NCBI GenBank assembly: GCA_027604185.1
Contig: JADGKB010000078.1
Span: forward strand, 1-64,000
Reading direction: 5' to 3'
DNA from: Boothiomyces macroporosus
Taxonomy: Eukaryota > Chytridiomycota > Chytridiomycetes > Rhizophydiales > Terramycetaceae
DNA length: 64,000 bases
Below the pieces are notes generated by a model. It had not been told where the DNA came from, searched no databases, and was given only the letters and a program-made list of their open reading frames with translations. Positions 1 through 61,331 of this stretch are shown piece after piece; positions within the stretch are counted from its first letter, which is position 1, and each line of letters starts with the position of its first letter. A program made the position numbers and the translations under genes.

Positions 1-3000
1 AGTCCAATCAGGCGGTTGGTACACAGTAAGACGAATGCTAACATAGCCAACCTACAACTACGAAGCAAACGGGAAGACCCCGCAAGAAATCGTCCAAAGT
101 CCTCGCTACTGCAACGGCAGAATGAAAAAGTGGGAGTTTGTCGCTCTCCACTTTTTTGTTGTGTTCAATCTCATCCTGGCTGTCATTCTGCCAGTGTTCT
201 ACTTTTCGATCTTTCCAAACTTTCTCCAGTACCACATTGACCAAATTGGTGTCAACGGCAACACCATCAGGATCCACAAGGCTTATGTTGGGCAGATGCA
301 AAACGGCTCTGTCCCAGTCGAAGTCGACATCCGGGTCGATGCGTTCACTTCATTCCCACTCCAGGGTGGGTTTCTCCCAAACACTGTCGACATCTCTTCT
401 GGCGGCAAGTCGCTCGCTTCTCTCGAAGTGCCAGAGCTCAACTTTATGCTGAACGAGGAGATCCGAGTCAACGTCAACTCCACGCTCACTCTGAGTGCCG
501 ACCAGCAACAGAACATGCAGCAGCTCTTGAAGCAGCTGTCCAGCCCAGACGGCGTCAAGGACTTGCAAATCAACATCCGCTTGAACCCAACCGTCACCAC
601 CCACGGCATCACCATCTATCCACACCTCGCGCTGAAGCGAGACCTCTCGCTCGGCGACGTGGTAGCCAGCACCAAGATGCTCACCGGCGGACCGTCCAAC
701 TTCAAGAACCCATTCATCTTCTTTGGGCCAGACAGCAGCCTTTGTAAGCACATTACTAACCGCAGTGTCCAGCGAATTGCGCTCGCAGTTCAACGCAGAC
801 GACATCATGCAGCTGCCAGACTCGCTCGGCGACTTCCAGCTGATCTGGACCAAGTTTGCCCTGCAGATGCAAGACATCATGGCGTCGACCGACTTTGGCT
901 TTGGGTTTGCCAATCCAAAGTACGTCTCGCTCGCCAACATCGACAGCATCTCGTACTACCTCGCGGTTGAGAACACCAGGGTGCTCAAGATGACCATCCG
1001 CAACGTTGGCCTGAAGACCGAGATCAACAGCGACTTCAAGATCGGGTTCGACTTTGCGTTTATCGATCCTTCGATCGACCCTGCAGCAGTGCAAACCGCG
1101 ATCGAGACTGCGTTCAGCAACTTTGCCAACAAGGGCGACTTTGGGTTTGCGCTCCAGGGGCCGGTCGTTGTCTCTGGCGCAGGCTTCTTTGAAACGATCA
1201 CTGCCGACCTGAATGTGCACGGCTCGATTGGCGACATCCTCTCGCTCGTGCCTAAGGGCTACGCCGACATCCTCACCAACCCAACGTCTGCCATTTCGAT
1301 CAACGCCACGCAGATTGTCGACATCATCGGCAAGTCCAAGATCGAGCTTGATGTGCTTGCAGACAAGATCTTTACCTCGCTGGGACTCAACATTCCGCTC
1401 TTCAACTTCCTGAAGCCGCCACAACAGATCGTCATTCCATACCAGGCCGGAGTCAGCATCTACGCCGGCGCCAACCTCGACCAGAAAGTCATCGACACCT
1501 CGCTTGCGCCAATCTCAATCACCCGCGAGAGCGGCGACGTGTTTGTCTCCACCAACGCGACTGTTGTTCCGCAAAACTCTGACGACGCAGCCAACGCGCT
1601 TGCTGTGTCCATCAACCCTATTCTCGCAGCGAACCCATCTGTTGGGCAGATCGGTATCAAAGACTTGGTGTTCATGGCTCCTGGCCAAGCGCCATTCAAG
1701 TGGACGCAGCAGCTGTTTGGACAGAGAGTGCTCAAGATCGCGCTGCCAGTGCTCGACAAGGCGCTGATCAACAGCTTGAACTCGCCAGCACTGTCGAACG
1801 CTCTCGGAAAGGTCGCACAGCTCGCTGTCGGAAGCGTCAACGTCAACCAGCTCACAACACAACCTGGGTTTGCAGCAACCGGAAACGTCAAAGTCACACT
1901 CAGCCCAACTCTGCCAACTGTGCACGTCGACATTGGATACTTCCACATTGACACTGCCATCGAGTCTGTCCCACTAGCCTCCCTCGAGCTCCCACAGGGG
2001 CTGCAGTTCTTCCCAAGCAGCGCCGGCACCAACATCAACGCCCAGCTTGTTCTCGGCCGCGACCCAGGCATCAGCGCCAAGGCACAAAGCTTGGTCGACG
2101 CTCTGCTCAAGAACGGCTCGCCACCGTCGTACTTTGGAACCACCGGACTCAAGTTTGGTGCTTCTGCCCAAAACTACTTCAAGACCTTCTCCAAGGTGGT
2201 CGTCGACATCAACACCCAGACTCTGCTGGACGTGCTCGCTGGGCAGCAGCTCAACATTGCCATTCCAGCCGGCTTGGTCAAGGTCAACTCTGCGGACGTG
2301 CAGCTCAAGTCGTCCACCAGCTTGAGCCTGGCTGCCGGAACCACACTCAACCTGCCATTCCCATTCACCGTCTCTGCCTCGCTCGGCTCTGTTGCGCTCA
2401 CCACCACTCTCGAACAGCAGTTCTTGATGGGACTCAACCTCGGCGCGCTCAACGTTGGCAGCGGCAGCAAGCCAGCCGATCTGCAAGCGTCAGTCACCCT
2501 TGCCACTGGCGCCAACGGATTCGCAGCCAAAGTCGGGTCAGCCGTCAACGCCATCCTGAACCTCGACGCTTCGTCTCCGCTTGCACTTGGAGCGACTGGA
2601 CTGCAGCTCGGCTCAGGTGCAGGCTTGATTGACCAGTTCAAGAACGTCACTGTTTCAACCACCACTGGCACGGTCGTCGCGCTGCTCAAGAAGCTCGTAG
2701 CTGCAAACGGAAACGCAGGCAGCCCGCTCGACCTGTCTGCAGTGCTCCCAGCGGACCTCGGAAACGTCTTGGCCACGCAAGTCAACCCATCGGTCAACAG
2801 CCTCAAGCTGCATGTTCTGCCACAGTCCAACATCGATGCTGGCGCAGACTTGACGTACAACAACCCGATCCCAGTGTCTGCCAGCTTGCCTTACGTATCG
2901 CTCTCTGCCCTGCTCGACGGCAACAAAGCCGTGGATCTCGCCTTGTCCAACGTGGTCTTGAAGCGCAACAATGGTGCGATGAATCCAGACGTTGGGATCA

Positions 3001-5617
3001 CTCTAGCCAACGGACTCGCTGCCAAGGTCGACTCTCTCCTCACTGCTTTCATGAACGGCGAGCTCTCGTCCAAGGTCGGTGTCCAGAGCCTGTACTTTGG
3101 AGCCAGCGCGAGCGACAAGAACGACTTGCTCTCGCAGGTCTCGCTTCCAAACTTGAACGCTCTCTTGGCACCAGTTGTGAAAGTTGCTGGACCGGCAGTT
3201 GCATCGCTGGTCAAGAAGACTGGCGCAACCGTGTCCAAGAGAGACGCAGCTCCGTTCGTCATCAAGGGCCCAATGGGAATCAGCCTTGCGCTCAGCGGTG
3301 CCGGCTTGGAGCTGCTCGACGGACAAAAGGTCAACGCCAACATCAACGCCCAGGTCAACCTGCCAGCGCCGTTCTCCAAGACTTCGTTCGACATCAGCAT
3401 TCCGTACATGGGCGGGTCTGCCTTCCTCGAGCAGCTCCCAGTCTCTGACTTTTCTCTCGGATTGAACGTCCAGGGCCAGAACCCAACTGTTGCGCTCAAC
3501 ACCCTCCTTGCACTGAAAGACTCTGACGCGCTCGCAGACCAGGTCAACACTCTCGTCAACGCGGTGTTGAGCGGCTCGCCAGTCCCAGGAAACGCAATCG
3601 TCAAAGGACTCACCATCGGTGCCAGCGCTCAGGACACCAACGATGCTCTGTCTGCACTCACTGCCGCACTCCCGCTCCAGAATCTGATTCCATCCGGCCT
3701 CTCTGGCGCACTCGACATCAACGCCCTGCTCGCGCAGCTCTCGCCAAGCATCAGCAACATCGGCGTAGCCACCAAGCCAGGCAAGGTGATTGAGAACACG
3801 GCAGCCATCAAGTTCAACCTTCCGTTCCCAGTCACGCTCAAGGGACTCAACTACTTTACCGCCTCCGCAGCGCTCGACGGCAACGCGCTTGTCGACATTT
3901 CTTCTACGTCGCCAATCTCGATTGCTTCTGGCACCAACGAGCTCAACGCTGCGCTCGACGTGCACTTCCCAAGCAGCAGCGGCATCCAAGGCGCCGTCAG
4001 CAAGTTTGTCAACGACCTGCTCACCAACATCAACAACAACTTTACCACTCCGTTCACGCAGAAGGTGTCTGCAACCAACGTCGCAGTCGGCTTCAGCGCA
4101 TCGCAGCCGCTCAAGGCGCTCAGCAAGATTGTGCTCAACATCGATCCAAACGTGCTCCTCAACCAAAAGAACTTTAACGCAGTGCTCAGTCTCGTCAACA
4201 GCCAGATCCAAGCCGGCGGCAGCGGTCTGCTCTCCAAGGCATTCTTGAAGCGCTTCATGACGCACGCCGACCAGGGACCAATCATCAACGGCGAGATCAT
4301 CGGAGGACTGCACCAGCTGCTCCCAATCACCGCCAACATTGGATACGCCAAGCTCAACGCACAGCTCGACGGAGCCGATCTCTTGGAGTTTGGGCTCAAC
4401 AAGGCGCTCACTCTTGCTGCTGACGGCGGAGACTTTGTGGCAAGCATCTACAACTACCTCAAGCTCTCTTCGGACCCAGCGATGGAGAAGGCTGTCGCAA
4501 CGTTCTTTGACCTGGTGCTCACCAAGCAGCCGGTGCCAAACAGCATTGGCGGCACTGGCGCTGTCTTTGGAGCCTCTGCCTCTGCTGCCGACGTCATCGA
4601 CACTTTCCAAACCGTCAATCTGTCGTTCAAGATGCAGCCAATCGTCAACATGATCTACAAGCTCGTCGACAACCTGCTCAAGCCAGCCGATCCAAACACG
4701 CCAAGCATCTTCAAGGGCATCAAGATTGTGCCAAAGAGCATGGACCTGGACGTTGCCGATGCCAAGACCCTCGTTGCCAATGCCGAAATCGACCTGCAAG
4801 GCGTCCCAGTGGACCTCGACATCAACATCCCGTATGCCACTGCTGGGCTCTCGTACAACGGCGTCTCGCTCGTCCAAAACGCACTCCAGAACATTGTGGT
4901 CAAGGACAACAAAGTCACAGCGTCTGTGCTCCTTGGCTTCAACGACCAGAGCGAAGCACAGCCAATCTACCAGGACATCTTGACCATTGTCGGCAACGTC
5001 GCCTTCAACATCACCACCAACACCAACGACTATGTGAACCTCGGATGGCTCGCCTTTGGCCCTAGCAAGGACAGCCAAATGACTCTGTTGCGCAGCGTGA
5101 ACGCCAAGGTTGAGCTGAACCCGTTGGTCGACCTGGCACGCAAGTTTGCCGAGCCATACTCGCTCGAAAACATTGATGCTTCCATCCAAGTCGAAGGCAT
5201 CCACGCCATCGCCACCCTCCCAGACCTTGGACTGCCGCTGAACGTCAAGGCTACGCTCAAGTCTGTCGCCAAGTGGGACATTGGCAAGCAGCGCGATCCG
5301 TCCAAGTTTGTTCCAATCGGATTGGTTGTCGGACAGCCATTCACTCTTCCACACATCGACTTGCTAGTCGAAGTTCCTACCTTGAATCCGCACCCGCCAT
5401 ACGACGCACAAACCACCGCAGTCCTCGCTGCCATGACCGACCTGATGGTCAATGTCGCCAGCTTCAAGAGCTTTGCCGAAGGGGCAGTTATTGGCTTTGT
5501 GTCTTTGATCGGAACCAACGGAGTCGAATTTGATATTCTGTCAAAGGCTTACATCTTTGGACCTGCCGGAATTTCGCTTCACAATACTCTCGAATTGGAT
5601 TTGGTTAACGATCAATA
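1..5617 (+). repeat. Tandem cassette unit 1
   Basis: Same sequence as 6975-12591 apart from single-base changes at 358, 5207 and 5366. It starts at or before the window edge, covers the 5' leader and coding sequence, and stops matching the other units after the A at 5617, inside codon NDQ-Y. Confidence 0.9.
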
Positions 5618-6303
5618 TTCTCACTTTTGGGATGATACCAACTTGTATCCGCTATATGACCCAACTGCTTCTCAAGGACCTGCAACTGCTTTCACTGACA
5701 ATCCAGTAATTGGTCAAATTTCAGTAATCAACAACTCTCCACTTCATTTAGATGCAGGTCAAGTAACTATTTGGGCTGGTGTGCCATATAATACACAAAC
5801 ATGGGGAAAGATTGACAATAGTATTGCATCTTCCATGTATTTCACTTCCATTGGAAATGTTGTTCTTTTGAACAAGAACGAAGGTGGAAATGTATTAAGT
5901 GACGCTGGTATGCCAACGGTATATTTATTTTTAATTTTAGGTTGGATTATTCAATGGCAATTTGTGGGCGCTTCCTTATTTCTTCTCACTTGATCCTGTA
6001 ACTCAAAACATTGTTGCTTTCTCTGCAGATAAATGGGATGCTCTTTTAACCGCTTTTGGACAAAGTTCTTTACCTCCTGGTATTTTGTACTCTACCATCA
6101 TTGAAATTAAACGCGATGGAAAACCAGTTTCTTGGTTCAACAATCTCATTGTTGCTATGGATCATACTTTCTGGTACAACCATTTGTACAACCAATTAGC
6201 TGATGGTGAAATTCCTTCCCACTTCAACTATGGAAACTATTTCAACAGAAACATCAGTCAAGGGTTGACTACTTGGGATTACCAATGGGCAATTACCAAA
6301 TAA
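122..6303 (+). CDS. Giant N-terminally anchored repeat protein, copy 1 (DUF3712/LEA-2-like)
   Basis: Exons 122-743, 766-5918 and 5941-6303, with two 22-nt introns, give 2,045 aa. Intron 1 carries ACTAAC just before its CAG. Intron 2 is placed by comparison with copy 3, which is uninterrupted there. Residues 7-30 form one hydrophobic segment with a short N-terminal tail, so the predicted topology is a signal-anchored protein with a very large ectodomain. The ectodomain is rich in beta-prone Leu/Val/Asn/Ser sequence and repeats a module of about 160 residues marked by a hydrophobic-GAS motif (for example GLKFGAS near 668, YFGAS near 982, TIGAS near 1156). It resembles fungal DUF3712/LEA-type-2 repeat proteins, which is a family-level inference only. 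The first 5.4 kb uses mostly C-ending codons, while the last 220 residues are AT-rich and differ from copy 3. No enzymatic motif is seen. The gene model is firm; the function is unknown. Confidence 0.85.
707..5100 (+). repeat. Degenerate internal ~160-residue protein modules (shown for copy 1)
   Basis: Protein-level repeats marked by a hydrophobic-GAS or similar motif, spaced 150-175 residues apart. Marks fall near residues 507, 668, 819, 981, 1155, 1313, 1472 and 1635, with two weaker ones before 507. Modules are too diverged to see at DNA level. The same modules exist in copies 2 and 3. Confidence 0.6.
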
Positions 6304-6974
6304 ATCCATTTTCAATGATATCGTTAATCTTCTTGAAACAAATTTTTTAATTCCTGAACTGATCGAATTCCTGCAACCTCAATAATTTCTATTTTTATCA
6401 AATCCATTAGGCAAATTCTTTCCGATTTGTTATCAATCATTTTGTGCTATTCAAACAGTTGGTGATTTTACTTTCATTTTGAATTTCCTTTTTAGGTTGA
6501 ATGGTGTGTTATGGTAACACAAAACGGAGGAATTATAACGAAATTAAAAATAGTTACTCCGTCAAATACGAAATCATCTGCCGTGCATTGACAGTGCAAA
6601 AAAGACCACAAAACCAGTTCAACAATGCAGTAATGAAAATATATACATTTGTTCCTAGTTTGGTTTTGTATCGACTAATTTCACTCAAAACAATGAAATC
6701 TGCACGGGTTATATTCAGCCATATTTATAGAAGAATTATTTATTTAAAACCAGCTTAAAACTGGAATATTTTTCCGTTTTGTAGCACTCTAGATTCCAGT
6801 TGCCTTGAGCTTTTTTTTCTCAAAGCGGTCACGTTAGTTGCGCCATCGTCTAATTCGGGAGACTCGCACCAGATCCCTGTAATTTGTAATACTCAATGGA
6901 CCTTTAAAAGGACTGAACGAACAATTGTAAATTATCCTAGACTACACGATGACGGACTCATCAGAAAAAAAACC
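6304..6974. other. Intergenic region between copies 1 and 2
   Basis: It holds the 3' UTR of copy 1 and the presumed promoter of copy 2. A palindrome CCTTTAAAAGG lies at 6901-6911, about 185 bp before the ATG of copy 2, and resembles but does not match a CArG box. I see no convincing gene. The 85-codon frame at 6501-6758 has no homology I recognise. Confidence 0.6.
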
Positions 6975-9900
6975 AGTCCAATCAGGCGGTTGGTACACAG
7001 TAAGACGAATGCTAACATAGCCAACCTACAACTACGAAGCAAACGGGAAGACCCCGCAAGAAATCGTCCAAAGTCCTCGCTACTGCAACGGCAGAATGAA
7101 AAAGTGGGAGTTTGTCGCTCTCCACTTTTTTGTTGTGTTCAATCTCATCCTGGCTGTCATTCTGCCAGTGTTCTACTTTTCGATCTTTCCAAACTTTCTC
7201 CAGTACCACATTGACCAAATTGGTGTCAACGGCAACACCATCAGGATCCACAAGGCTTATGTTGGGCAGATGCAAAACGGCTCTGTCCCAGTCGAAGTCG
7301 ACATCCGGGTCGATGCGTTCACTTCATTCCCGCTCCAGGGTGGGTTTCTCCCAAACACTGTCGACATCTCTTCTGGCGGCAAGTCGCTCGCTTCTCTCGA
7401 AGTGCCAGAGCTCAACTTTATGCTGAACGAGGAGATCCGAGTCAACGTCAACTCCACGCTCACTCTGAGTGCCGACCAGCAACAGAACATGCAGCAGCTC
7501 TTGAAGCAGCTGTCCAGCCCAGACGGCGTCAAGGACTTGCAAATCAACATCCGCTTGAACCCAACCGTCACCACCCACGGCATCACCATCTATCCACACC
7601 TCGCGCTGAAGCGAGACCTCTCGCTCGGCGACGTGGTAGCCAGCACCAAGATGCTCACCGGCGGACCGTCCAACTTCAAGAACCCATTCATCTTCTTTGG
7701 GCCAGACAGCAGCCTTTGTAAGCACATTACTAACCGCAGTGTCCAGCGAATTGCGCTCGCAGTTCAACGCAGACGACATCATGCAGCTGCCAGACTCGCT
7801 CGGCGACTTCCAGCTGATCTGGACCAAGTTTGCCCTGCAGATGCAAGACATCATGGCGTCGACCGACTTTGGCTTTGGGTTTGCCAATCCAAAGTACGTC
7901 TCGCTCGCCAACATCGACAGCATCTCGTACTACCTCGCGGTTGAGAACACCAGGGTGCTCAAGATGACCATCCGCAACGTTGGCCTGAAGACCGAGATCA
8001 ACAGCGACTTCAAGATCGGGTTCGACTTTGCGTTTATCGATCCTTCGATCGACCCTGCAGCAGTGCAAACCGCGATCGAGACTGCGTTCAGCAACTTTGC
8101 CAACAAGGGCGACTTTGGGTTTGCGCTCCAGGGGCCGGTCGTTGTCTCTGGCGCAGGCTTCTTTGAAACGATCACTGCCGACCTGAATGTGCACGGCTCG
8201 ATTGGCGACATCCTCTCGCTCGTGCCTAAGGGCTACGCCGACATCCTCACCAACCCAACGTCTGCCATTTCGATCAACGCCACGCAGATTGTCGACATCA
8301 TCGGCAAGTCCAAGATCGAGCTTGATGTGCTTGCAGACAAGATCTTTACCTCGCTGGGACTCAACATTCCGCTCTTCAACTTCCTGAAGCCGCCACAACA
8401 GATCGTCATTCCATACCAGGCCGGAGTCAGCATCTACGCCGGCGCCAACCTCGACCAGAAAGTCATCGACACCTCGCTTGCGCCAATCTCAATCACCCGC
8501 GAGAGCGGCGACGTGTTTGTCTCCACCAACGCGACTGTTGTTCCGCAAAACTCTGACGACGCAGCCAACGCGCTTGCTGTGTCCATCAACCCTATTCTCG
8601 CAGCGAACCCATCTGTTGGGCAGATCGGTATCAAAGACTTGGTGTTCATGGCTCCTGGCCAAGCGCCATTCAAGTGGACGCAGCAGCTGTTTGGACAGAG
8701 AGTGCTCAAGATCGCGCTGCCAGTGCTCGACAAGGCGCTGATCAACAGCTTGAACTCGCCAGCACTGTCGAACGCTCTCGGAAAGGTCGCACAGCTCGCT
8801 GTCGGAAGCGTCAACGTCAACCAGCTCACAACACAACCTGGGTTTGCAGCAACCGGAAACGTCAAAGTCACACTCAGCCCAACTCTGCCAACTGTGCACG
8901 TCGACATTGGATACTTCCACATTGACACTGCCATCGAGTCTGTCCCACTAGCCTCCCTCGAGCTCCCACAGGGGCTGCAGTTCTTCCCAAGCAGCGCCGG
9001 CACCAACATCAACGCCCAGCTTGTTCTCGGCCGCGACCCAGGCATCAGCGCCAAGGCACAAAGCTTGGTCGACGCTCTGCTCAAGAACGGCTCGCCACCG
9101 TCGTACTTTGGAACCACCGGACTCAAGTTTGGTGCTTCTGCCCAAAACTACTTCAAGACCTTCTCCAAGGTGGTCGTCGACATCAACACCCAGACTCTGC
9201 TGGACGTGCTCGCTGGGCAGCAGCTCAACATTGCCATTCCAGCCGGCTTGGTCAAGGTCAACTCTGCGGACGTGCAGCTCAAGTCGTCCACCAGCTTGAG
9301 CCTGGCTGCCGGAACCACACTCAACCTGCCATTCCCATTCACCGTCTCTGCCTCGCTCGGCTCTGTTGCGCTCACCACCACTCTCGAACAGCAGTTCTTG
9401 ATGGGACTCAACCTCGGCGCGCTCAACGTTGGCAGCGGCAGCAAGCCAGCCGATCTGCAAGCGTCAGTCACCCTTGCCACTGGCGCCAACGGATTCGCAG
9501 CCAAAGTCGGGTCAGCCGTCAACGCCATCCTGAACCTCGACGCTTCGTCTCCGCTTGCACTTGGAGCGACTGGACTGCAGCTCGGCTCAGGTGCAGGCTT
9601 GATTGACCAGTTCAAGAACGTCACTGTTTCAACCACCACTGGCACGGTCGTCGCGCTGCTCAAGAAGCTCGTAGCTGCAAACGGAAACGCAGGCAGCCCG
9701 CTCGACCTGTCTGCAGTGCTCCCAGCGGACCTCGGAAACGTCTTGGCCACGCAAGTCAACCCATCGGTCAACAGCCTCAAGCTGCATGTTCTGCCACAGT
9801 CCAACATCGATGCTGGCGCAGACTTGACGTACAACAACCCGATCCCAGTGTCTGCCAGCTTGCCTTACGTATCGCTCTCTGCCCTGCTCGACGGCAACAA

Positions 9901-12591
9901 AGCCGTGGATCTCGCCTTGTCCAACGTGGTCTTGAAGCGCAACAATGGTGCGATGAATCCAGACGTTGGGATCACTCTAGCCAACGGACTCGCTGCCAAG
10001 GTCGACTCTCTCCTCACTGCTTTCATGAACGGCGAGCTCTCGTCCAAGGTCGGTGTCCAGAGCCTGTACTTTGGAGCCAGCGCGAGCGACAAGAACGACT
10101 TGCTCTCGCAGGTCTCGCTTCCAAACTTGAACGCTCTCTTGGCACCAGTTGTGAAAGTTGCTGGACCGGCAGTTGCATCGCTGGTCAAGAAGACTGGCGC
10201 AACCGTGTCCAAGAGAGACGCAGCTCCGTTCGTCATCAAGGGCCCAATGGGAATCAGCCTTGCGCTCAGCGGTGCCGGCTTGGAGCTGCTCGACGGACAA
10301 AAGGTCAACGCCAACATCAACGCCCAGGTCAACCTGCCAGCGCCGTTCTCCAAGACTTCGTTCGACATCAGCATTCCGTACATGGGCGGGTCTGCCTTCC
10401 TCGAGCAGCTCCCAGTCTCTGACTTTTCTCTCGGATTGAACGTCCAGGGCCAGAACCCAACTGTTGCGCTCAACACCCTCCTTGCACTGAAAGACTCTGA
10501 CGCGCTCGCAGACCAGGTCAACACTCTCGTCAACGCGGTGTTGAGCGGCTCGCCAGTCCCAGGAAACGCAATCGTCAAAGGACTCACCATCGGTGCCAGC
10601 GCTCAGGACACCAACGATGCTCTGTCTGCACTCACTGCCGCACTCCCGCTCCAGAATCTGATTCCATCCGGCCTCTCTGGCGCACTCGACATCAACGCCC
10701 TGCTCGCGCAGCTCTCGCCAAGCATCAGCAACATCGGCGTAGCCACCAAGCCAGGCAAGGTGATTGAGAACACGGCAGCCATCAAGTTCAACCTTCCGTT
10801 CCCAGTCACGCTCAAGGGACTCAACTACTTTACCGCCTCCGCAGCGCTCGACGGCAACGCGCTTGTCGACATTTCTTCTACGTCGCCAATCTCGATTGCT
10901 TCTGGCACCAACGAGCTCAACGCTGCGCTCGACGTGCACTTCCCAAGCAGCAGCGGCATCCAAGGCGCCGTCAGCAAGTTTGTCAACGACCTGCTCACCA
11001 ACATCAACAACAACTTTACCACTCCGTTCACGCAGAAGGTGTCTGCAACCAACGTCGCAGTCGGCTTCAGCGCATCGCAGCCGCTCAAGGCGCTCAGCAA
11101 GATTGTGCTCAACATCGATCCAAACGTGCTCCTCAACCAAAAGAACTTTAACGCAGTGCTCAGTCTCGTCAACAGCCAGATCCAAGCCGGCGGCAGCGGT
11201 CTGCTCTCCAAGGCATTCTTGAAGCGCTTCATGACGCACGCCGACCAGGGACCAATCATCAACGGCGAGATCATCGGAGGACTGCACCAGCTGCTCCCAA
11301 TCACCGCCAACATTGGATACGCCAAGCTCAACGCACAGCTCGACGGAGCCGATCTCTTGGAGTTTGGGCTCAACAAGGCGCTCACTCTTGCTGCTGACGG
11401 CGGAGACTTTGTGGCAAGCATCTACAACTACCTCAAGCTCTCTTCGGACCCAGCGATGGAGAAGGCTGTCGCAACGTTCTTTGACCTGGTGCTCACCAAG
11501 CAGCCGGTGCCAAACAGCATTGGCGGCACTGGCGCTGTCTTTGGAGCCTCTGCCTCTGCTGCCGACGTCATCGACACTTTCCAAACCGTCAATCTGTCGT
11601 TCAAGATGCAGCCAATCGTCAACATGATCTACAAGCTCGTCGACAACCTGCTCAAGCCAGCCGATCCAAACACGCCAAGCATCTTCAAGGGCATCAAGAT
11701 TGTGCCAAAGAGCATGGACCTGGACGTTGCCGATGCCAAGACCCTCGTTGCCAATGCCGAAATCGACCTGCAAGGCGTCCCAGTGGACCTCGACATCAAC
11801 ATCCCGTATGCCACTGCTGGGCTCTCGTACAACGGCGTCTCGCTCGTCCAAAACGCACTCCAGAACATTGTGGTCAAGGACAACAAAGTCACAGCGTCTG
11901 TGCTCCTTGGCTTCAACGACCAGAGCGAAGCACAGCCAATCTACCAGGACATCTTGACCATTGTCGGCAACGTCGCCTTCAACATCACCACCAACACCAA
12001 CGACTATGTGAACCTCGGATGGCTCGCCTTTGGCCCTAGCAAGGACAGCCAAATGACTCTGTTGCGCAGCGTGAACGCCAAGGTTGAGCTGAACCCGTTG
12101 GTCGACCTGGCACGCAAGTTTGCCGAGCCATACTCGCTCGAAAACATTGATGCTTCCATCCAAGTCGAAGGCATCCACGCTATCGCCACCCTCCCAGACC
12201 TTGGACTGCCGCTGAACGTCAAGGCTACGCTCAAGTCTGTCGCCAAGTGGGACATTGGCAAGCAGCGCGATCCGTCCAAGTTTGTTCCAATCGGATTGGT
12301 TGTCGGACAGCCATTCACTCTTCCACACATCGACTTGCTGGTCGAAGTTCCTACCTTGAATCCGCACCCGCCATACGACGCACAAACCACCGCAGTCCTC
12401 GCTGCCATGACCGACCTGATGGTCAATGTCGCCAGCTTCAAGAGCTTTGCCGAAGGGGCAGTTATTGGCTTTGTGTCTTTGATCGGAACCAACGGAGTCG
12501 AATTTGATATTCTGTCAAAGGCTTACATCTTTGGACCTGCCGGAATTTCGCTTCACAATACTCTCGAATTGGATTTGGTTAACGATCAATA
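6975..12591 (+). repeat. Tandem cassette unit 2
   Basis: Offset 6,974 bp from unit 1. It matches unit 1 to its very last base (12591) and is then joined without any shared bases to the leader of unit 3. It lacks the 1.4 kb of C-terminal exon, 3' UTR and intergenic DNA that follow unit 1. Confidence 0.9.
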
Positions 12592-12592
12592 A
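7096..12592 (+). CDS. Giant repeat protein, copy 2, C-terminally truncated
   Basis: Exons 7096-7717 and 7740-12592, with one 22-nt intron (7718-7739), give 1,824 aa. I see two base changes against copy 1 (7332 and 12181) plus 12340, all synonymous, so the shared part is the same protein. The reading frame ends exactly where the cassette identity ends. The stop codon TAA (12590-12592) is made by the junction between the cassette end and the 5' leader of copy 3. The protein lacks the 220-residue C-terminal domain that copies 1 and 3 keep, and the gene has no 3' UTR of its own. It could be a broken copy, a shortened isoform or an assembly error. The upstream 121 bp match copy 1, so its promoter may be intact. 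Confidence 0.75.
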
Positions 12593-20309: not shown

Positions 20310-22854
<2,545 letters not shown>

Positions 22855-30022: not shown

Positions 30023-30150
30023 AAATAAAAACCTTTCACTTTTCCAAAGTAATCTTCAAAATGATGTACTACCAGCTGCAACAGATCATAAACGGGCATC
30101 TTGAAAAGGAAAGCATTCGCTAACCATAGGTAATTTGAACCTGAACGTAG

Positions 30151-46031: not shown

Positions 46032-49000
46032 TCAAGGAAGCGGATTGTTGTTTGGAAGTTGGACTTTGACGATATCCAAGAATACCTGTTCCAAAGTCAT
46101 TCGACCAATCGTGAACTGCTTTAGATGGCTTTGGTTTTTGAGGTCAGTCAAGCGGCGGATGAGCTCACCAATCGAGGTATTGAACTGTGAAAAGTCTAGG
46201 ATCACATTTTCCCCAACTACAGCATCAACGGAAATTTGTGCTAATGGGTCATCACGGAATACGGTAGATCGTAGGAAATCTACAATATTTGGAACTGGGG
46301 ATGCTAAATGAAGAGTTGCTTTGTATCCTTTGACGTGGGCTTTGGTTAGTTCGTATTCGGTAGCACACACTCTGAGAACACCATCAGTCATAATCGCAAT
46401 TCTATCGCAACACGATGTTTCATTGATATAATGAGTGGTCATAATTGTTGTTCTCTTGATGTTCAACAATCTTACAGTGTTCCACAACTTTTGCCGAGCA
46501 AGAGGATCTAATCCTGTAGATGCTTCATCCAAAACTACAAGGGAGCGCGGCAACATAACTGCAATTGCTGAACTTACCTTTCTCTTTGTACCTCCACTTA
46601 GATTTCCACAGTTTACGTTCTTGAACATTTCAATGCCAAACGCATGGAGCAAGTTGTTGATGTAATGTTCTAGTTGGGTATCTGGAAGGCCATTCAGAGA
46701 GCAGAAAAGCTGCAAATGTTCAACAACAGTCATGTTTGGGATCAACAGGTCGTCAAACTGTGGGCAGAATCCAATATTTTTAATAACATTGAATTTTTCA
46801 GAGGCTACATGCTTATAATCCATATGAATAGAGCCTGTGGTCGGAAGAAGTTGTGCAGTGAGCATGCCCAGTGAAGTTGTTTTCCCGCATCCATTTGGCC
46901 CCAACATTGCAAACATTTCATTTTTCTCGATTTGTAAATTCAAATTGTTAACAGCTACTTTTTTCTTGAATCTTTTGGTTACAGAGTTGAATGAAACAAA
47001 CGAATCGGTAATTGGTGGAATTCTTTTGATAACCAAATGCCAAAGTTCAATTGCCAGTAAGATGATAACATACAACACCAAGTATGCAATTGTTACCGCA
47101 AGAAAAGATGCTGTAGATGGGACACTCGACTCTCCTACAGTGGAAACTGCCATAAACACTGCAAATGGTGCTGTAGTTGGAAGATAGAGGAAGAGGGTGA
47201 TGAAAATCCCATATTGATCACTGCCCCATTGCTTGATTGCTCCAACAATAACCACAACGATATAAATAAGAAACCCAAACATTCGAATTCCAGTTGAAAC
47301 ACCTCTAACCATTGTTCGTGGCAGCAGAGATCCAAGAATTGCTGAAAAAAATATAGGTTGAAGCAAATAAAAGAACACCACGGCAGGAGAAAAGTTGTAA
47401 ACAGATGGAGTAATAGCGGAAACGAGTATGTTGAACGGAAGCGAAATCAACAGAGAGCGAACCAAAGTAACAAACCAGTAGCTTTGCAAAGGAACTCCTG
47501 TAGAAAGCAGCAGAAACTTAATTCTTTCTCGTGAATCACAAATGTCGTCCGAAAGCGTAACTACAAAATCGGAAAAGATAGAGTAGACAAGTATGTGAAA
47601 TACAATCACAGCCCATGCTACCTTTGGGTCTCCATGAGTGATAGACACATATTCTAGTGCACTAGAGACACTCTTATCTGGGAAAATAGCATTCAATGAA
47701 AGAAGCGAGGCGCCTGCATATCCCCCGAATACCGTGGTTACAAAATCAGAGCCATTCTTGACGAGTCTTCCGATTGTAATTGAATCAGTCGTATTTAGCG
47801 GTACAAAAGAGGAGGGGCTTTTTGCAATCAAGTCGGAAATATCGGTTTCCAAAACAAACCCGTTCGGAACAAGTCTGTCCATTAGTGTGGAAAACGTAAG
47901 CTTGTCAAAAGTAGTGGTGTTGACAACAAAAACCTTGAAAATCACATATAGAGCAATCGTCATGATTAGAGTAAGAGACATGCGTAATATCACTGGAACT
48001 ATTGATGCGGTAAACCTCTTGAATTCGAATTTGAAAAAGAACATGGTCTTTGACCAAGTTGAAGGCTCTACAAATGAATCCATATCATCCAAAAGTAGCT
48101 TTTGTTGTTCCTTTGTAATAGTAATATCACTTTCATCCACCAATTCCTTATTCGTGAAAATTTCCTCCAACCCATTCTCCTGAACCGAAAACGAAGTAAT
48201 TGCATTGTTCAAATCCCGGTCCAATTCAAATTCAGTTAAAATTGCAAGATCTTTGGCCGATATTTTGAATTCATAAATCTGAGCATTAGATCTGACACAA
48301 ACGACATCAACCCCTTTCAATTTAAACCAATTTTCAAACAACTCTACCCTAACATCGGGTGATGATTTTTCGATGGACAATGTGTAGCCAGTATTATAAG
48401 TATTTTTCAAGAACTCTGAGGATCCGACGCAAACCACTTGCCCAAGTGTCAGCATAGCCTTTCGGTCACAAAGAATGTCAGCTTCATCCATAAAATGAGT
48501 GCACAACAAAATTGCTCGATCCTTCTTTTTGCGAATCAAAAAGTCCCAAATTACACGTCTAAAGTTAAGATGGGCTACCTGTTTTCTGGGTCAACTCCCG
48601 ATGACATTTCATCCAAGACAACTAATTCTGGGTCATTAATAAACGCTAGGGCAACCCCTAATTTTCTTTTCTGACCGCCAGAGAGTAGTTTAGAAGCCAT
48701 ATTTAGCATTGTATGAGGAATCTGCAGTCCTTCAACAATATCATTTATCTTGTTATTAACTTCGTTTGACGGAACACCATGCATCAACCCAAAAAAGAAC
48801 ATGTGCTCTTTAGGAGATAGCTCGTCAAATAGAATATCAACTTGTGAACATATTCCTGTTTTCTCGGAAATGTCATATCTCTTTTCTTTTGCATCCAACC
48901 CAAATACACTGACGTCTCCATCAGTTGCAGACAGTACACCACAAAGAATGTTAATCAAAGTGCTTTTTCCGGCACCATTGTATCCGAGCAGACCAAAAAT

Positions 49001-50441
49001 TTCGCCCTTTGAAAATTCCAGAGAAACTTCAGTTAGTGCTTTTGTGGATGCCCCATCGTATATTTTGGAGAGATTTAATATTTGAACTTTGTTGAGTGAA
49101 GTTTCATTCGTTGAAGGCCGTTTCTCAATTTTTGGGAGCAATCTTTCCCTTTCTGCAACTTGCGGTACCGTCTTTTTGAAAAACTGAGAAATAGGGTAAT
49201 GTAGCGGTCTAGTTTCGTCTTGACTAACTTCGAGCCAGTTCAAGTATATACCAATCAAGTAAAGCATAACGGTTACACAACACGAAGTAAATACCAACGT
49301 ATTCACTATGTTTAACAAGTAATTACCTGAAGGAGCAGTAAAAGGCACAGAAGTACTTGTAAATCCTCGACCAGTTGGCGAAAATCCAGAAATGTATGAA
49401 TAGGCACTTAGCGCAATTCTGGGGTTTATGCATAGCAAAATAATACCCCAAGCAGGAATGTTTTGAATCATTTGCGATCGCAATTGCGCAGAAACAACTC
49501 CAACTAATATGTAGATGGTATAAAGAAGGATTGCACTTCGAATATTTGGGGCTCTTTGGGCACATATCCAAGTAAAAGCAATGTACGAGTAACATGAATT
49601 GAATATCAAAAAGAACAGAGGGCCTGCAGCTGAGGGAGTTTTCCACATATCCAAGAACATGAACATGTTCCAACCGGCATAGATAGTCGAAATCAAAATT
49701 GGAAAGAAAAAGGTGCCAATATAATAAGAAGACCTTCTAATGCCTACGATTAACCTTGTTGATACCAGTCATGAACAGTCCAAACTTTAGTCCTTTGGTT
49801 CTCTCCTCAATCATATTTGTAACCATGATTGAAGACACAGCAAAGAAGAAAAAGTCAGAGAAAAGGTCTGCAGATGAAGTAAGCAAGTTCTTGAAATTGA
49901 TATCTATTGCTTCTTTCACTTGGAAGCCAGCACCTGTATCTTGTCCAAGGTAAGAGTCTAAAAGATACTTTGTGAATACAACAGAGTGCATATCTGGTTG
50001 AAAACCGCAATTCTGTGTGCTAATACATATCCATAAACTAGAAAAGCTTCCCGAGCCGGCATAGGTAAATGTATAGTCGTATTGTTCGTTAGCCGAATCA
50101 AACTTTGAGAACGACAGCAATAGACTGTCAGGCTTTGTTGACTTGATGTAATCGGTCCTATTTGTAGTAGCGATATTGTATTTGTCGATTGCCGGCTGTA
50201 ATTTTGACATTGCAGAAGCATCTAGAGTTGAAGTGTCCAGATACAGGGGGATTGGAGTAGTATCGTAAATGTTATTGAATTCTGTTACAGAAAACACCGC
50301 TGTCAAAGTCTTGAGCAAGATATAACTGAGAGAGCCGTAAATAAAGAGCAGAACCAGGACATATTTTGTCTTTCCCTTCACCAGCTGGCGGGTGAAATTC
50401 AACCGAATAATTGCGGCAGTTTGGGTGTAAAATGAAATCAT
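46032..50441 (-). CDS. ABCA-type full-size transporter, copy 1
   Basis: Exons 50441-49766, 49743-49327, 49305-48579 and 48558-46032 (introns 22, 21 and 20 nt) give 1,448 aa. The order is TM domain 1 with a large first extramembrane loop, NBD1 (Walker A GYNGAGKST near 474; signature LSGGQKRK; VVLDEMSSGVDP), TM domain 2, then NBD2 (GPNGCGKTT near 1164; LSGGTKRK; LDEASTGLDP; MTTHY switch His). The C-terminal extension is of the ABCA type. ABCA proteins move lipids across membranes. The 21-nt intron is stop-free and in frame; I call it spliced because the paralogue has a 20-nt intron at the same place. Tandem with the paralogue at 50899-55283. Confidence 0.93.
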
Positions 50442-50898
50442 GCTTCTTCGGCACTTGTCGATAAATGCTTTATAAACAAAGTTTTTGTTTTTAAGTTCAT
50501 TTGAGAGCCCGGCACTCGGTAAGCCACTTTGGGATTTGTTAACTGTGGATACACAGCAATTGGAACAGAGTAATTATTAACCGCAAAATATCATGGTGAG
50601 TTTATACTGGTTGGATATCAATTAGTGATATGTGAAAAGAAGTTCTAATTTGACTATTCGCGCTTCCCGAAGGCTATGTGGGATTCGAGTCATCACATAC
50701 CGTAGTATTAATATATGCGGTGCTCTTTGGGCTGAGTGAACAACTTAAAAGATATGTGATGCTTGCCAATGGAACATCTTGGTATAATATTGATCTGGTA
50801 AAGGAATTTAGAGCTCAATTTCAACTAGTTGGACAATCGTGTGTACGAAATTATTCGGCATTACCGAAATCAAAGAATCTAATTCTATCAATGATTTA
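50442..50898. other. Intergenic region between the two ABC genes
   Basis: It contains the promoter of ABC copy 1 with a TATA box at 50469-50474 and the 3' flank of ABC copy 2. A 98-codon plus frame (50678-50974) overlaps the ABC2 coding end and has no ATG start that I can support. Confidence 0.5.
50469..50474 (-). promoter_or_regulatory. TATA box of ABC copy 1
   Basis: TATAAA on the minus strand, about 28 nt before the ATG at 50441. With normal spacing the transcript would begin almost at the start codon, so the leader is very short. Confidence 0.45.
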
Positions 50899-53800
50899 TT
50901 ATACTGTTTCTTTTGCTGATTTCTTGACAATGTCCAGAAAGACGTCTTCCAGTGACATTCGTCCAATCGTATAGTTCTTGATATAATTTTGGCGCACCAG
51001 GTCTGACAAACGAGAAATCAGCAGACTGAGGGGAATGCGGAACTGTTTAAAGTTGATCATGGCACTTTCACCAACAATATTTTCAATTTCTACCTGAGCA
51101 GTGTTGTCATCATAAAACAAGGACTGATAAACGAATTCTAGCAAATTGTCTGGTTTGGAGCTCATATGAAGTGTTGCCTTGTATCCTTGAGCAGATGATT
51201 TCGTTAGTTCATATTCAGTGTCACAGGCTTGAAGGTTTCCGTCAGTCATTATTGCAATCTTGTCGCAGTAAGAAGTTTCACTAATATAATGGGTTGTCAT
51301 GATGGTAGTTCGATTAACATTGAGCAAGCGAACGGTGTTCCACAGCTTTTGTCTTGCCAGAGGATCCAACCCAGTTGAAGCCTCATCTAGCACAACGAGT
51401 GATCGTGGTAACATTACGGCAATCGCAGAACTAACCTTTCGCTTTGTGCCACCACTAAGACTGCCACAGTTTACATTTTTAAACCTTTCAATTCCAAAAG
51501 CATGAAGCAAATTGTCGATATAGTCTTCAGAAGCGACTTCAGGAATACCATTCATCGCACAAAATAGATGTAAATGCTGTGCAACAGTCATGTTAGCAAT
51601 CAAGAGGTCATCGAATTGCGGACAGAAACCGATTCTCTTTATGGCTTCCAGTTTCCTTGATGCAACATGTAAACCATCCATGTGAACGGACCCACTAGTT
51701 GGTAGAGCTTGAGCAGTTAGCATGCTTAGGGAAGTAGTTTTACCACAGCCGTTCGGACCTAGGAATGCAAACATTTCATTCTTTTCAATTTGCAAGTTCA
51801 AATTGTTTACAGCAACCTTCTTTCCAAACCTTTTAGTAATAGAGTTGAATGATACAAATGATTGGGTAAAGGCAGCAATCTTTCGAATGAATAAATGACG
51901 TAGCTCTACTCCAGCAAATAATACAATGATACCAATAGACCATATTATACTGTTTGTCATGAACTGCTGAGCTGTTAAAACTTTGGTGTTCGCCATTGGT
52001 GCACTGAGCACTGATAGAGGCAGATATGGTGATAGAACTTCAAATGCGTCATTCAAGTATTTGTACTGAGCTGGTCCCCAATTTTCAATCGCACCGACGA
52101 TCAAGATCGCGAGAAGGGCTAGTAACCCACACACTCTAATCGCCTGAGTAATTCCACCAACAGCACTCTTTGCGAATACTGATCCAATCAAAGCAGAAAA
52201 GAATAATGGCTGAATTAGGTAAATGACTGCCGCTGCACCAGAGAGACTATATGCTGAAGGGAGAGCTGCTATAAATAACGCAATCAATGGAGCAATGATG
52301 ACAATAGATCTAACAAATATCACAATCCAGTAGCTACCCAATGGAACACCAGCAGAAAGAAGCAAGAACTTGATTTTCTCTTTAGATTCAGCAATATCTT
52401 CAGTCAAATTAACAAGAAAATCAGCATAGAGCAACTGCATGATTACCATTGTTAATGATTCATAGCTACCAGTGCTGTCAGTAACTTTAGTGTAGTATTC
52501 GTAGCTCGATGCAATCAAATTGTTTTTGAATAATGCCGACATTGCTAATAGCGGCGCTCCATCATAATCACCAATTGTGGTCAAGACTGTTCCGGTTGCA
52601 TTGGCAATCAAAGTACCCATTGATATTGATGAGCCGGTTGAACCAAGGGGAACGAATTTGGATGGATTATTGCTAATCAAACCATTGATATTAGTTTCCA
52701 GGACGAACCCGCTAGGCAGCAATCTTGGTAATATTTCATTTTCAAATGAAGCAGTCTCTGAGGAAGTATAAGCCCCGCCCAAGACTTTGATACAGATCCA
52801 AGCAATAATAATCAAGATTAGTGACAGTGTCATTCTGAAAAATATTTCAACAATTGAAGAGAATAGCCTTTGCATTTCGAACTTCATGTAGAAACCAGTT
52901 TTTGCAGCGAATGAAGGCTCTACAAACGATGCCATGTGATCAAGCAGATTCTGTTGCTCTTGTGGAGTGAGTGTAATATCTTTTTCATCTACCAGTTCTT
53001 TGTTTGTAAAGATTTGTTCTAGTCCATTTTCTTGGACCGAATAAGATCGAATAGCGCGCGAAATTTCACCGTCTCTTTCAAAATCTACTAAAGCATTCAA
53101 ATGCATGGCACTGATTTGGTATTCAACCAGTTTTTGATTTACCTTTGTAACGTAAACTTTGATGCTGCGTTTGTGGAACCAATTTTCAATGACTCTAATA
53201 TCAGTTGACGGGTGAGCTTTTTCCACGGTCAATGTGTATCCAGTATCGTAAATTTGCTTCAAGTATTCAGAAGACCCTACACAAACTAACTGACCGAGTG
53301 TCAACATTGCTTTTCTATCGCAAACTATATCGGCTTCATCCATGAAATGAGTGCATAGCAATATGGCTCGGTTTTGTTTCTTTTTCAGCAAAAAGTCCCA
53401 AATAACACGTCTAAATTTAATTGGCAAATTACCTATTTTCTGGGTCTACTCCAGAGGACATTTCGTCAAGTACTACAAGTTCTGGATCATTGATAAATGC
53501 CAAAGCGACACCAAGTTTTCTTTTTTGTCCCGCAGAAAGTACTTTGGTAGGGCTTTTAAGCATATGGTCTGGGATGTGTAGATCTGCCACAATCTGGTCG
53601 ATAGTCTGCTTGATTTGACTGGAAGGCACACCGCGCATTAATCCAAAGAAGAATAGATGCTCCCTGGTAGTCAGGTCATCATACAAGATATCGACTTGGG
53701 AACAGACACCCGTTCTTGCAGCAATTTCATATCGTTTTTCTTTGGCGTCCAAACCGAAAATATTGACGTTTCCTTCTGTTGCACTTAATACCCCACATAA

Positions 53801-55283
53801 TATGTTGATAAAAGTACTTTTGCCTGCCCCATTGTAGCCAAGTAATCCAAAGATTTCGCCCTTTGTGAATTCCAAAGAAACATCCGTCAAGGCTCTGGTA
53901 GTGGCTCCAGCATAAAGTTTACTTAAATTGGAAATCTGGACAGAATCACCGGTATTCATGCCTTTTTTAGTTCCAGGTTCAATCTTTGCATATACTTTGG
54001 CTCGCTCTTCAACAACAGCAGCACGCTTTTTGAAGAATCTCGAGATTGGGTAGTGAATTGGGCGGGTTTCATCTTGACTTACTTCTAGCCAGTTGAGATA
54101 AGCTCCAAATAGAAACAATAACACCGTGAACAGGACACTTGAAGCGACGATGGTGTTGACTGTATTAGCAATTAATTACTTGACGGAGCACTATACGGAA
54201 TGGCCATAGAGCTGAATCCTTTGTCATTTCCATTGATTTGACTGATTGCAAAGTACGTTGATAATCCAAAGCGTGGATTGACACACAACAAAACTGCACC
54301 CCACGATGGAATGTACTGTAGCAACTTGCTATTGATTGGTGTGACTTTTGAGATTACTCCTGTAGCTACATACACGGTACTTATCAACGTTGCAGCTCTA
54401 ATATTTGGGGCAAGTTGAGCACATATCCACGCAAAGCCAACATATCCATAACACGCACAAAAAACGAGAACTGCAAGCGGGCCAACAGCAGAAGGGACAG
54501 ACCAAATCTGAATAAACATGAATAAAGTCAATCCACCAAAAAGGGTTGCGATGAGCATTGGGATAAAGAACAGACCTATATAATATGAACTTCTTCGAAC
54601 ACCTGTATTAATGCAATACTACCTGTCATGAACAGACCAAACTTTAACCCTTTCGTCTTTTCTTCAAATAGTGCATAGATGATCATAGGAGATAGTGCCA
54701 GAAAGAATAGGTCTTCGAATGCATCAATAGCTACGAATGGCGTTCCTGAAGTTGATAACGCCTGTAGCATTGTCAAGTCACCATTCCCACCTCGCAGAGT
54801 TTTATCAATGATGTTCTTTGTAGCAGCTATATACTTCATATTTGGTTCAAAGCTGCAACCATTTGGAGTTATACATAGCCAAAGGGATGATAAACTTCCA
54901 CCCGAGGATGAACTGGTTAGCGTGTAGTCATATTTCTGGTTTTGTGAATCAAATGTTTTGAATGAAAGTAAAAGTGACATTGGTTGTTCAAGGGCCAAAA
55001 AGTCTTGTCTCTTCATCTGCTGAACCTGAGGGTTTGCAGTAAGTTTGGCCAGCGCATCAGAATCCAAGTTGATGGGGTCTACGAAAAGCTGGAGGGGAGA
55101 TACAGGCGCGACACCAGAAATAGCATCTGGATGGTAATTCCTGAAGGCAGTTTTTATAATAATGTATGGTAATAGTGAATACGCAAGGAGGAAAACCATG
55201 GCATACTTGATCTTTCCCCTGACGATTTGTCTAGTAAAGTTCAACCGAATAATAGCAGCAGTTTGTGTAAGACCAGATATCAT
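50899..55283 (-). CDS. ABCA-type full-size transporter, copy 2
   Basis: Exons 55283-54623, 54602-54180, 54159-53433 and 53410-50899 (introns 20, 20 and 22 nt) give 1,440 aa, paralogous along its whole length to the gene at 46032-50441 with all three introns at the same positions. NBD1 has GYNGAGKST near 471 but a changed signature, LSAGQKRK. NBD2 has GPNGCGKTT near 1159 and LSGGTKRK. I chose the Met at 55283 (MISGLTQTAAIIRLNF) because the paralogue starts there and a TATA box lies between it and the alternative upstream Met at 55385. Likely lipid exporter; substrate unknown. Confidence 0.93.
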
Positions 55284-55629: not shown

Positions 55630-56314
<685 letters not shown>

Positions 56315-60000: not shown

Positions 60001-60420
60001 CTCTACCTGGCTGGCACAATTGTACTACCCGGTGCAATTGAGATGTGCCCTATTCTCTTTCATTGTGATTCACATATGAAATAGTTTCAATGGCGTAAGA
60101 AGGAGCGCTCTATGGCCAGAAAATTGAAAACGTGTTTGACGACTGGCCGTATATGAAAGATTAGATCGCCCACCGCTGAAAAAGCCAATCAAAAACCACT
60201 TCAAGTTCATAAATAGTAATCCAATAATAGTTTGACATGGGTATTCATAGTTGGAAAAATTTCTAGCGTTTTTTAAAACTTTGCCAGACATGAATCTAGC
60301 ACATGAAGGGCAGAACGATTGAGCTGCATCTCTTTTACCGCTGTTACACAAGTCCGCTTTGGGAAGCATTTTCTAGGGAACTAGTATATCAACGGGGAAA
60401 ATCCTAAAAAAATCTTTATC
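57032..60420. other. Gene-poor region, about 3.4 kb
   Basis: Only short frames occur (57149-57361 plus, 57842-58090 plus, 59316-59567 minus, 60070-60369 minus), none with a recognisable domain. A homopolymer run of T lies near 58138-58145. No tRNA B-box is seen on either strand. It contrasts with the spacing of 20-500 bp elsewhere and may contain regulatory DNA for the bHLH gene or unrecognised noncoding RNA. Confidence 0.4.
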
Positions 60421-61331
60421 ATGAGCGACAATTATTACCAAGATCAACATTATAACCCCACAAGCTACTCTCCACAAGTAAACCATGAGAATACAAACCC
60501 GTCGCCGTTCCTTAAAGCTAGCCCATACGGAACTGATTTAGTTTACGCAAGCCATTCAAATAGTCCCGGAAATATCAGTATTAACCAGATACCTTATATA
60601 ATGTCTCCTTCTGTTACTCGTCAATTTGAATATTCACCACAGGATCAAGTAGTATACAGTGACCACACGCCTCTACAACTTACCCCCCCTGCAATGGTAC
60701 AGTCCAACTACAACTCTCATATATTGGAGCAAATTAATGGGCAAACAGAGTACAGCCAAAATATAGATTACTCAAGTCGTGTTAGCGCTTATACTGATTC
60801 AAACTCTGGCGTTACGCCGGCCCAGTTGCTAGAGTTGACTTTTAGAGAAGACAACCGCACCCCATACACACCTCCTGTCCAAGAATCTAAGCAATTAATT
60901 TTCACGTCCACTAAATAGTAATTATTATTAATCGCAGCCAAAATAGCCAGCCAGCACGACGTTCTTCGTCTGAATCTTCTAAACCTCCTTCTGGTGCGAA
61001 ATTCAAGAAACTTTCAAACAAAGAAGCAGAGCAAATGCGAAGAGATAAATTAAAAGATGCTTTCAAAGCTGTCAAAGTAGTCTTGCCGTTTGAAAAGGAA
61101 AAACATCCTTCCAAAGTGTTTATATTGAAAAGAGCAAGAGAACACATACTTGATTTAGAGCATGACAATGTACAGAAAGAAGACGAAATTCAGCAGTTAA
61201 AAGCCCACATTGAACAATTGAAAAATGCAATGCTTGCAAGAGGACTTTCTGTTCCTTATTTCCGACCTTACAACCGAACCGAGCGACATTCTGGAGAGAA
61301 TTACATTAGCTCTGAAGATGAAGATGATTAA
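60421..61331 (+). CDS. bHLH-leucine-zipper transcription factor
   Basis: Exons 60421-60917 and 60938-61331 (20-nt intron) give 296 aa. The N-terminal 170 residues are a low-complexity Asn/Gln/Ser/Tyr/Pro region, probably for activation. The C-terminal part has the basic region SNKEAEQMRRDKLKDAF with the Glu and two Arg that read E-box half-sites. Helix 1, a loop and helix 2 (SKVFILKRAREHILDLE) follow, then a heptad zipper (VQKEDEIQQLKAHIEQLKN). The end is acidic (SSEDEDD). The usual first-position His is Asn here. It is nuclear and probably dimerises through the zipper. Target genes cannot be deduced. Confidence 0.88.

Follow-up and report, generated by a model that had tools for sequence, protein, structure and literature searches.

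How short can the introns of a fungal genome become, and how would a spliceosome remove them? The question is raised by a stretch of 64,000 nucleotides (nt) from the saprobe Boothiomyces macroporosus, positions 1 to 64,000 of contig JADGKB010000078.1 (hereafter the window). An earlier note, made from its letters alone, had placed 41 introns in 15 genes, all of them 19–22 nt long, and had taken the genome for a fungal type. The host is indeed a chytrid, placed by NCBI in the Chytridiomycota, Rhizophydiales, Terramycetaceae. The contig (C78; 69,041 bases) belongs to an assembly of 15.2 megabases (Mb) and 216 contigs (GCA_027604185.1), and the CDC48 protein of the window, once spliced, is 100% identical to the GenBank entry 'AAA ATPase cdc48 [Boothiomyces macroporosus]'. 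As judged from the sequence, the segments are very probably U2-type spliceosomal introns, shortened genome-wide down to a lower limit near 19 nt.

GT-AG segments of 19–22 nt exceed chance

Counting donor-to-acceptor spacings alone revealed no distinct peak in the window, because the splice motifs are too weak alone. Introns were called with a purpose-built, codon-based gene finder that bridges exons over GT..AG gaps, the sole ends allowed; an initial codon table, dominated by a biased tandem gene, was dropped. GT-AG was then compared with decoy end pairs in a motif-free test with flat intron lengths of 10–1000 nt, on 245 kilobases (kb): 45 kb belonged to the window, and 20 further contigs supplied the remaining 200 kb. 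In this test GT-AG yielded 53 introns of 19–22 nt among 121 calls, whereas each of ten other end pairs yielded 1–8 among 96–114 calls; an earlier motif-free run with seven decoy pairs gave 54 against 1–8. In the other length bins between 10 and 1000 nt, GT-AG showed no excess, its counts (4 at 41–60 nt, 6 at 61–100, 7 at 101–200, 24 at 201–400 and 11 at 401–1000) lying inside or under the decoy range. The codon table of both runs had been refined on GT-AG gene models, but the decoys received the identical table, and therefore the data themselves select 19–22 nt. GT-AG was thus the only one of 11 end pairs with an excess, as is typical of U2-type introns; the introns placed in the window all run from GT to AG, as the gene finder requires.

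When motifs were added to flat lengths, 202 of 280 calls measured 19–22 nt, the remainder being spread over 23–300 nt with none below 19. A trained model, with learned length prior and motifs, was run on a 264 kb sample of the 15.2 Mb genome and called 336 introns, 327 of them shorter than 31 nt. De-duplication left 325; it dropped two of three tandem repeats, so this set holds one repeat too many. Their lengths of 19, 20, 21, 22, 23, 24 and 25 nt occurred 38, 147, 75, 52, 11, 1 and 1 times, respectively (mean 20.6 nt, standard deviation 1.05); 312 fell at 19–22 nt and none below 19. Nearly all introns in the sample thus vary little in length and stay under about 25 nt, which is how an ultrashort-intron genome is recognized. 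They are also frequent, at 1.6 per kb of coding sequence, with 113 of 159 gene models carrying introns and 46 having no short ones; the gap between gene models has a median of 146 bases. In 19 loci outside training (L001–L008 and L033–L043, including two pairs that show the same gene), the introns in the matched gene were all 19–24 nt, four loci having none. Among five loci decoded later, SF1 (L047) has introns of 21, 22 and 24 nt and Yju2 (L046) has none; the other three, two for Cwc25 and one for Isy1, produced calls outside this range, described below.

Public protein models agree with these boundaries. With six introns removed, the CDC48 model equals the GenBank protein (P0001) at 806/806 residues, and GenBank Cwc25 (P0241) omits one 21-nt stretch of its locus, which is the 21-nt model intron; the same protein shows that a call of 31 nt at the Cwc25 loci (L044 and its twin, L045) is false. 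A 2,481-base JGI contig encodes an 808-residue CDC48 orthologue, 92% identical, in which all six junction peptides are unbroken (one with a D-to-E change). Such an unbroken frame resembles spliced RNA and is consistent with lariat excision. CDC48 (20310–22854) is also 91% identical to that of Kappamyces sp. JEL0829, and the two identities point to close relatives in public data. A domain scan covered seven proteins, namely five spliced and one intronless from the window and genomic U2AF65 from outside it. Domains spanned the joins in the spliced window proteins: MBOAT (142.6 bits), Ras (195), SH3 (37.4), M16 (39.4) and aspartyl protease (170.8 bits, over nearly the whole profile). The proposal that splicing restores conserved proteins, made for CDC48, the aspartic protease and Rab among others, is thereby supported.

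Of 75 introns whose length is divisible by three, 67 contain a stop codon in frame, above the expected 71% (p = 0.0003), which would fit selection through nonsense-mediated decay. The excess fades at higher motif thresholds (51/59, p = 0.009; 34/40, p = 0.08), so it may reflect a detection bias. Hidden stop-free introns of 21 nt were not evident: at a threshold of at least 10 bits, called exons hold 5 intron-like 21-mers versus 8–12 k-mers at each of 19, 20 and 22 nt.

Intron anatomy

The donor starts with GTA in 93% of the 325 introns, most commonly as the hexamer GTAATT, and at position +5 T (47%) is far commoner than G (21%), despite a U1 with the canonical ATACTTACCTG. The acceptor is YAG in 296/325. 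By our own scoring, 285 introns contain a strong YTRAY-like branch site, the commonest motifs being TTAAT, CTAAT, TTAAC and CTAAC, while 40 contain no strong site; in 255 of the 325, TACTAAC is matched at 4 or 5 of its 7 positions at best. Among the 285, the branch A lies at intron nucleotide 14, 15 or 16 in 98, 109 and 42 cases (249 in total), and it precedes the last G by 5 nt in 105 and by 6 nt in 133 (238 in total), in agreement with the earlier description of a branch site a few bases before the AG. The acceptor motif used in calling was seeded from introns found without it, but it covers the branch region, which raises these shares somewhat. The commonest branch A is nucleotide 14 in 19-mers (33/37) and nucleotide 16 in 22-mers (25/44), with a tail of mostly 5–6 nt; length differences are absorbed mostly by the donor-to-branch interval, and the 3' tail is nearly constant. 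GC content is 29% in introns versus 40% in their flanks.

Two other intron classes were considered. Across five positions in the middle of the 20-mers, introns have a mean pairwise identity of 1.56, where the mid-intron base composition alone would give about 1.55, so the sequence similarity of introner-type mobile introns is absent there. U12-type introns have AT-AC or RTATCCTT donors and a TCCTTAAC branch site. AT-AC showed no excess (5 at 19–22 nt; other decoys 1–8) and the donors here are GTAATT-like; U11 and U12 were not searched for.

Introns placed in the window

The trained model places 44 introns of 19–22 nt in 15 genes of the window (4 of 19, 19 of 20, 10 of 21 and 11 of 22 nt), three of them repeats inside a tandem triplication at 1–18808. 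The number of genes is that of the earlier note; the three additional introns are all 21-mers (10 versus 7), one of which, at 26–46, lies upstream of its start at 122. Its view that no longer intron is needed also stands: the sole longer call in the window (134 nt, 29996–30129) fuses the end of a DUF642 protein gene with CAND1 and is taken as an artefact. An early reading of 22693–22713 as a CDC48 intron was rejected since homologues show the segment to be coding.

The six CDC48 introns, on the reverse strand and backed by identity to the GenBank protein, lie at 20774–20794 (21 nt), 21178–21197 (20 nt; its removal restores GPPGCGKT), 21818–21839 (22 nt), 22260–22280 (21 nt), 22645–22663 (19 nt) and 22820–22840 (21 nt), the last being first in the gene. 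On the forward strand, the MBOAT acyltransferase has introns at 38320–38339 and 38495–38514 (20 nt each) and at 38826–38847 (22 nt), and its domain (residues 108–393) spans all three joins. The M16 peptidase has introns at 34286–34305 (20 nt; M16 domain residues 58–142 span this join), 34494–34513 and 35427–35446 (20 nt each), 35541–35562 (22 nt) and 36430–36450 (21 nt). Reverse-strand genes with a domain across the joins are the aspartic protease (39548–39567 and 40231–40250, 20 nt each; residues 62–410 span both), the SH3-PX protein (41749–41768, 20 nt; SH3 domain residues 47–96) and the Rab-like GTPase (55838–55856, 19 nt, and 56039–56059, 21 nt; Ras domain residues 12–168 span both).

The remaining introns, like the last four of the M16 gene, are placed by the gene-finder model. 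CAND1, on the forward strand, has seven: 30130–30150 (21 nt), 30321–30339 (19 nt), and five of 20 nt at 30536–30555, 30870–30889, 31433–31452, 33419–33438 and 33511–33530. Also on the forward strand, an unnamed gene (23699–25556) has introns at 23979–24000 (22 nt), 24977–24996 (20 nt) and 25132–25150 (19 nt), and gene 60421–61331, which we take to resemble a bHLH protein, has one at 60918–60937 (20 nt). On the reverse strand, a glycosyltransferase-like gene, so named from sub-threshold Pfam matches, has introns at 42850–42871 (22 nt) and 43012–43032 (21 nt). ABC transporter 1 has them at 48559–48578 (20 nt), 49306–49326 (21 nt) and 49744–49765 (22 nt), and ABC transporter 2 at 53411–53432 (22 nt), 54160–54179 and 54603–54622 (20 nt each). 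These two genes adjoin at 46032–55283 with a similar layout and are presumably of the ABCA type; the names CAND1 and ABC transporter rest on single-exon domain matches.

The triplication comprises three tandem copies of a long forward-strand gene, with open frames of 1,775, 1,650 and 1,868 codons that appear near-identical. Copy A has introns at 26–46 (21 nt), 744–765 and 5919–5940 (22 nt each), copy B at 7000–7020 (21 nt, repeating 26–46) and 7718–7739 (22 nt, repeating 744–765), and copy C at 13280–13301 (22 nt, repeating 744–765). The copies also contain antisense open frames of 786–845 codons and show a codon bias toward final C; no Pfam domain was found in the single frame tested.

Splicing machinery

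Losses from the splicing machinery had been anticipated. Among the parts sought, none was missing but U5, the search for which was blank everywhere; one component, the N-terminus of Isy1, is changed. U1, U2 and U6 small nuclear RNAs (snRNAs) occur in the genome with canonical pairing sites (ATACTTACCTG, GTGTAGTATC and TACAGAGA, respectively), U2 in two copies. The two U2 genes (L029 on C80 and L030 on C178) have diverged, with an identical branch-binding region.

All seven splicing proteins sought (Slu7, Prp18, U2AF65, Cwc25, Yju2, SF1 and Isy1) are present. Short branch-to-AG distances might permit loss of Slu7, Prp18 or U2AF65; no such loss is observed. Set against solved structures, Slu7, U2AF65, Yju2 and Cwc25 align with the human proteins, and spliced U2AF65 matches human U2AF65 at 211.9 bits. 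The N-terminus of Yju2 is canonical. For Cwc25, the start MG[GSA]GDLN is shared by 104 of the best 120 among 178 homologues, in a comparison whose query had a wrong C-terminal part, as shown by P0241. The Cwc25 gene occurs twice (L044 on C49, L045 on C100) with equal match score and gene model, possibly owing to a duplicated or haplotype contig piece.

An altered Isy1 N-terminus

The N-terminus of Isy1 is almost invariant among the homologues retrieved from plants, animals, algae, amoebae and fungi. Among the best 120 of 253, the start [MQ]ARx.EK is found in 79, while 36 models begin within the motif and 5 show neither pattern. Three of these five are without the region, and the other two are Boothiomyces and Globomyces (MANNQKEKQKSVVHRF). 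Isy1 starts MAPKTLAQKQ... in B. macroporosus and in the separately annotated Boothiomyces sp. JEL0838 (P0121), while in Globomyces (P0122) the N-terminus is partly changed. The chytrids Fimicolochytrium and Thoreauomyces have MARNEEKAQSMLYRF, and P0123, labelled Hompol1 and read by us as Homolaphlyctis, nearly so. At its 5' end (L048 168–450; C39:29700–30900) the Boothiomyces gene seems to hold two adjoining introns around an exon of 1–4 nt, or a nested (twin) intron.

In the ciliate Stentor coeruleus, whose introns are 15–16 nt, Cwc25 has no glycine plug and Isy1 lacks a conserved N-terminus (PMC9505925). Boothiomyces shares the non-conserved Isy1 N-terminus, in a gene whose first-exon model is uncertain. 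Tentatively, the two unrelated organisms may both have replaced it as a recurrent solution for fitting a tight lariat loop into the active site, with other branching factors canonical and Globomyces intermediate, although we regard this as rather unlikely. If true, it would accommodate lariat loops of 14–16 nt in Boothiomyces and 10–11 nt in Stentor.

Alternative explanations and spliceosome geometry

A length of 19–22 nt is under the minimum reported for the human spliceosome, and the segments might instead be removed without one, by ciliate-like DNA elimination, an Ire1/ligase-type reaction or translational bypass. Such routes are extremely improbable given GT-AG ends with a branch-like motif at a nearly fixed position, the canonical U1, U2 and U6 pairing sites and the spliceosome proteins, the lack of a 19–22 nt excess in any of the ten decoys (GC-AG and AT-AC among them), and GenBank models that omit the same segments from CDC48 and Cwc25. 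The narrow range could also be a selection effect, in which a seeker of short introns finds short ones and misses longer. The trained model does have a length prior and made nine of its 336 calls above 30 nt, and motifs with flat lengths leave 78 of 280 calls outside 19–22 nt. With flat lengths and no motif, however, decoys were exceeded at 19–22 nt only, and the run with motifs and flat lengths put most of its calls there and none below 19, which makes this account very unlikely. More serious is the possibility that the introns are real but the machine unadapted, a canonical spliceosome tolerating them and the Isy1 change being drift or a gene-model error. The canonical snRNA pairing sites, the canonical Cwc25 and Yju2 N-termini and the uncertain first exon of Isy1 speak for it; the altered start in a separately annotated strain and, partly, in Globomyces speaks against it, as does the canonical or motif-internal start of nearly all homologues compared. 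We consider it plausible, if somewhat short of an even chance.

Several points weigh against genome-wide, spliceosomal ultrashort introns, or against an adapted machine to remove them. Given the nine trained-model calls above 30 nt, a minority of longer introns may exist; introns above 1000 nt, beyond the lengths compared, may exist too, and Isy1 (L048) contains calls of 17 and 46 nt, exceptions to the size range. The trained prior and motifs favour what was learned, and the results for the held-out loci and the branch sites therefore retain some dependence on the training. The U1 match, at 68.8 bits, narrowly misses the Rfam cut-off of 69.5; U5 had no match in the genome, in a search that matched in no control genome either; and the genomic matches of U2AF65, exon by exon, are under the whole-protein cut-off of the family. 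The Cwc25 plug is intact (MGGGDLN), unlike in Stentor, where it is reported lost. The first exon of Isy1 is uncertain, since our model works there only with an intron of 17 nt and an exon of 4 nt, and the JEL0838 GenBank model differs. Finally, we infer from sequence both the absence of the segments from mature mRNA and the mechanism considered below (early hand-over, Isy1).

U2-type introns at a floor of about 19 nt pose a geometric problem, and the suggestion that their donor-to-branch distance is near a steric limit is sustained. The branch A, mostly at nucleotide 14–16, is far below the human values: 46 nt is the shortest productive donor-to-branch distance for human introns (PMC11291888), and in the human B complex about 52 nt of stretched intron are needed to bridge two extended helices and the 15-nm gap that separates them (PMC6692369). 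A human-type B complex would presumably be unable to form on such introns without large change. The spliceosome would remove them by intron definition, in a geometry that hardly varies, and the arms that hold donor and branch would have to meet without such a bridge. U1 might hand the donor over to U6 early, or U1 and U2 might never occupy one intron simultaneously. The active site may be relieved by the change in the Isy1 N-terminus, which is reported to touch the intron backbone at branching.

Relation to known ultrashort introns and significance

The likeness drawn earlier to nucleomorphs and heterotrich ciliates is apt, and mikrocytids belong in the same company. Stentor resembles Boothiomyces in its tiny, AT-rich, genome-wide GT-AG introns with a 5-nt tail after the branch A, in its commonest intron start (GUAAUU, matching the commonest donor hexamer here) and in conserving the U6 ACAGAGA and U2 branch-binding site but not the Isy1 N-terminus. 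It differs in the position of the branch A (nucleotide 10–11 versus mostly 14–16), in the share of genes with introns (18% versus 113 of 159 gene models) and in lacking the Cwc25 plug that Boothiomyces keeps. Chlorarachniophyte nucleomorph introns (18–21 bp, cited in PMC10245619) have nearly the same range and are likewise numerous in a compact genome, but that genome is a relic endosymbiont nucleus. The 16–17 nt introns of mikrocytids are extremely narrow in range and very short, but that parasite has 224 in its whole annotated genome versus 325 in 264 kb here, and a highly reduced spliceosome where Boothiomyces has all seven proteins sought (PMC10245619). By the seven proteins sought, the spliceosome here is not reduced, nor is the Cwc25 plug lost; each of these two features is known from one member of the group and does not define it as a whole. 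Introns of Paramecium and Nyctotherus are also ultrashort, but longer (~25 bp) and in ciliates (PMC5014332), and those of the fungus Cryptococcus neoformans, with a mean of 63 bp, are about three times longer (PMC8476143). Term look-ups in PMC6572847, PMC5364385, PMC13391722, PMC12115818 and PMC8371127 gave no fungal introns this short.

No report of such introns in a fungus was found in the literature searched, a scope outside which most subscription papers lie. The genome is thus of a known kind, with ultrashort introns, in a new host group and combination: a fungus, nearly all introns of 19–22 nt, and seven sought splicing proteins kept. Its introns are already implicit in public GenBank proteins. 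Gene finders and RNA mappers with a minimum intron length above 20 nt would misread it.

Minimal intron length is a question of spliceosome geometry. The extremes cited belong to ciliates, relic nuclei and reduced parasites, whereas such introns occur here in a chytrid with a 15 Mb genome, throughout the sample. Ordinary fungal introns follow the common GT-branch-AG logic with SF1 and U2AF, and chytrids related to B. macroporosus have ordinary introns. The finding offers a comparison within one fungal order, together with a testable candidate change, in Isy1.

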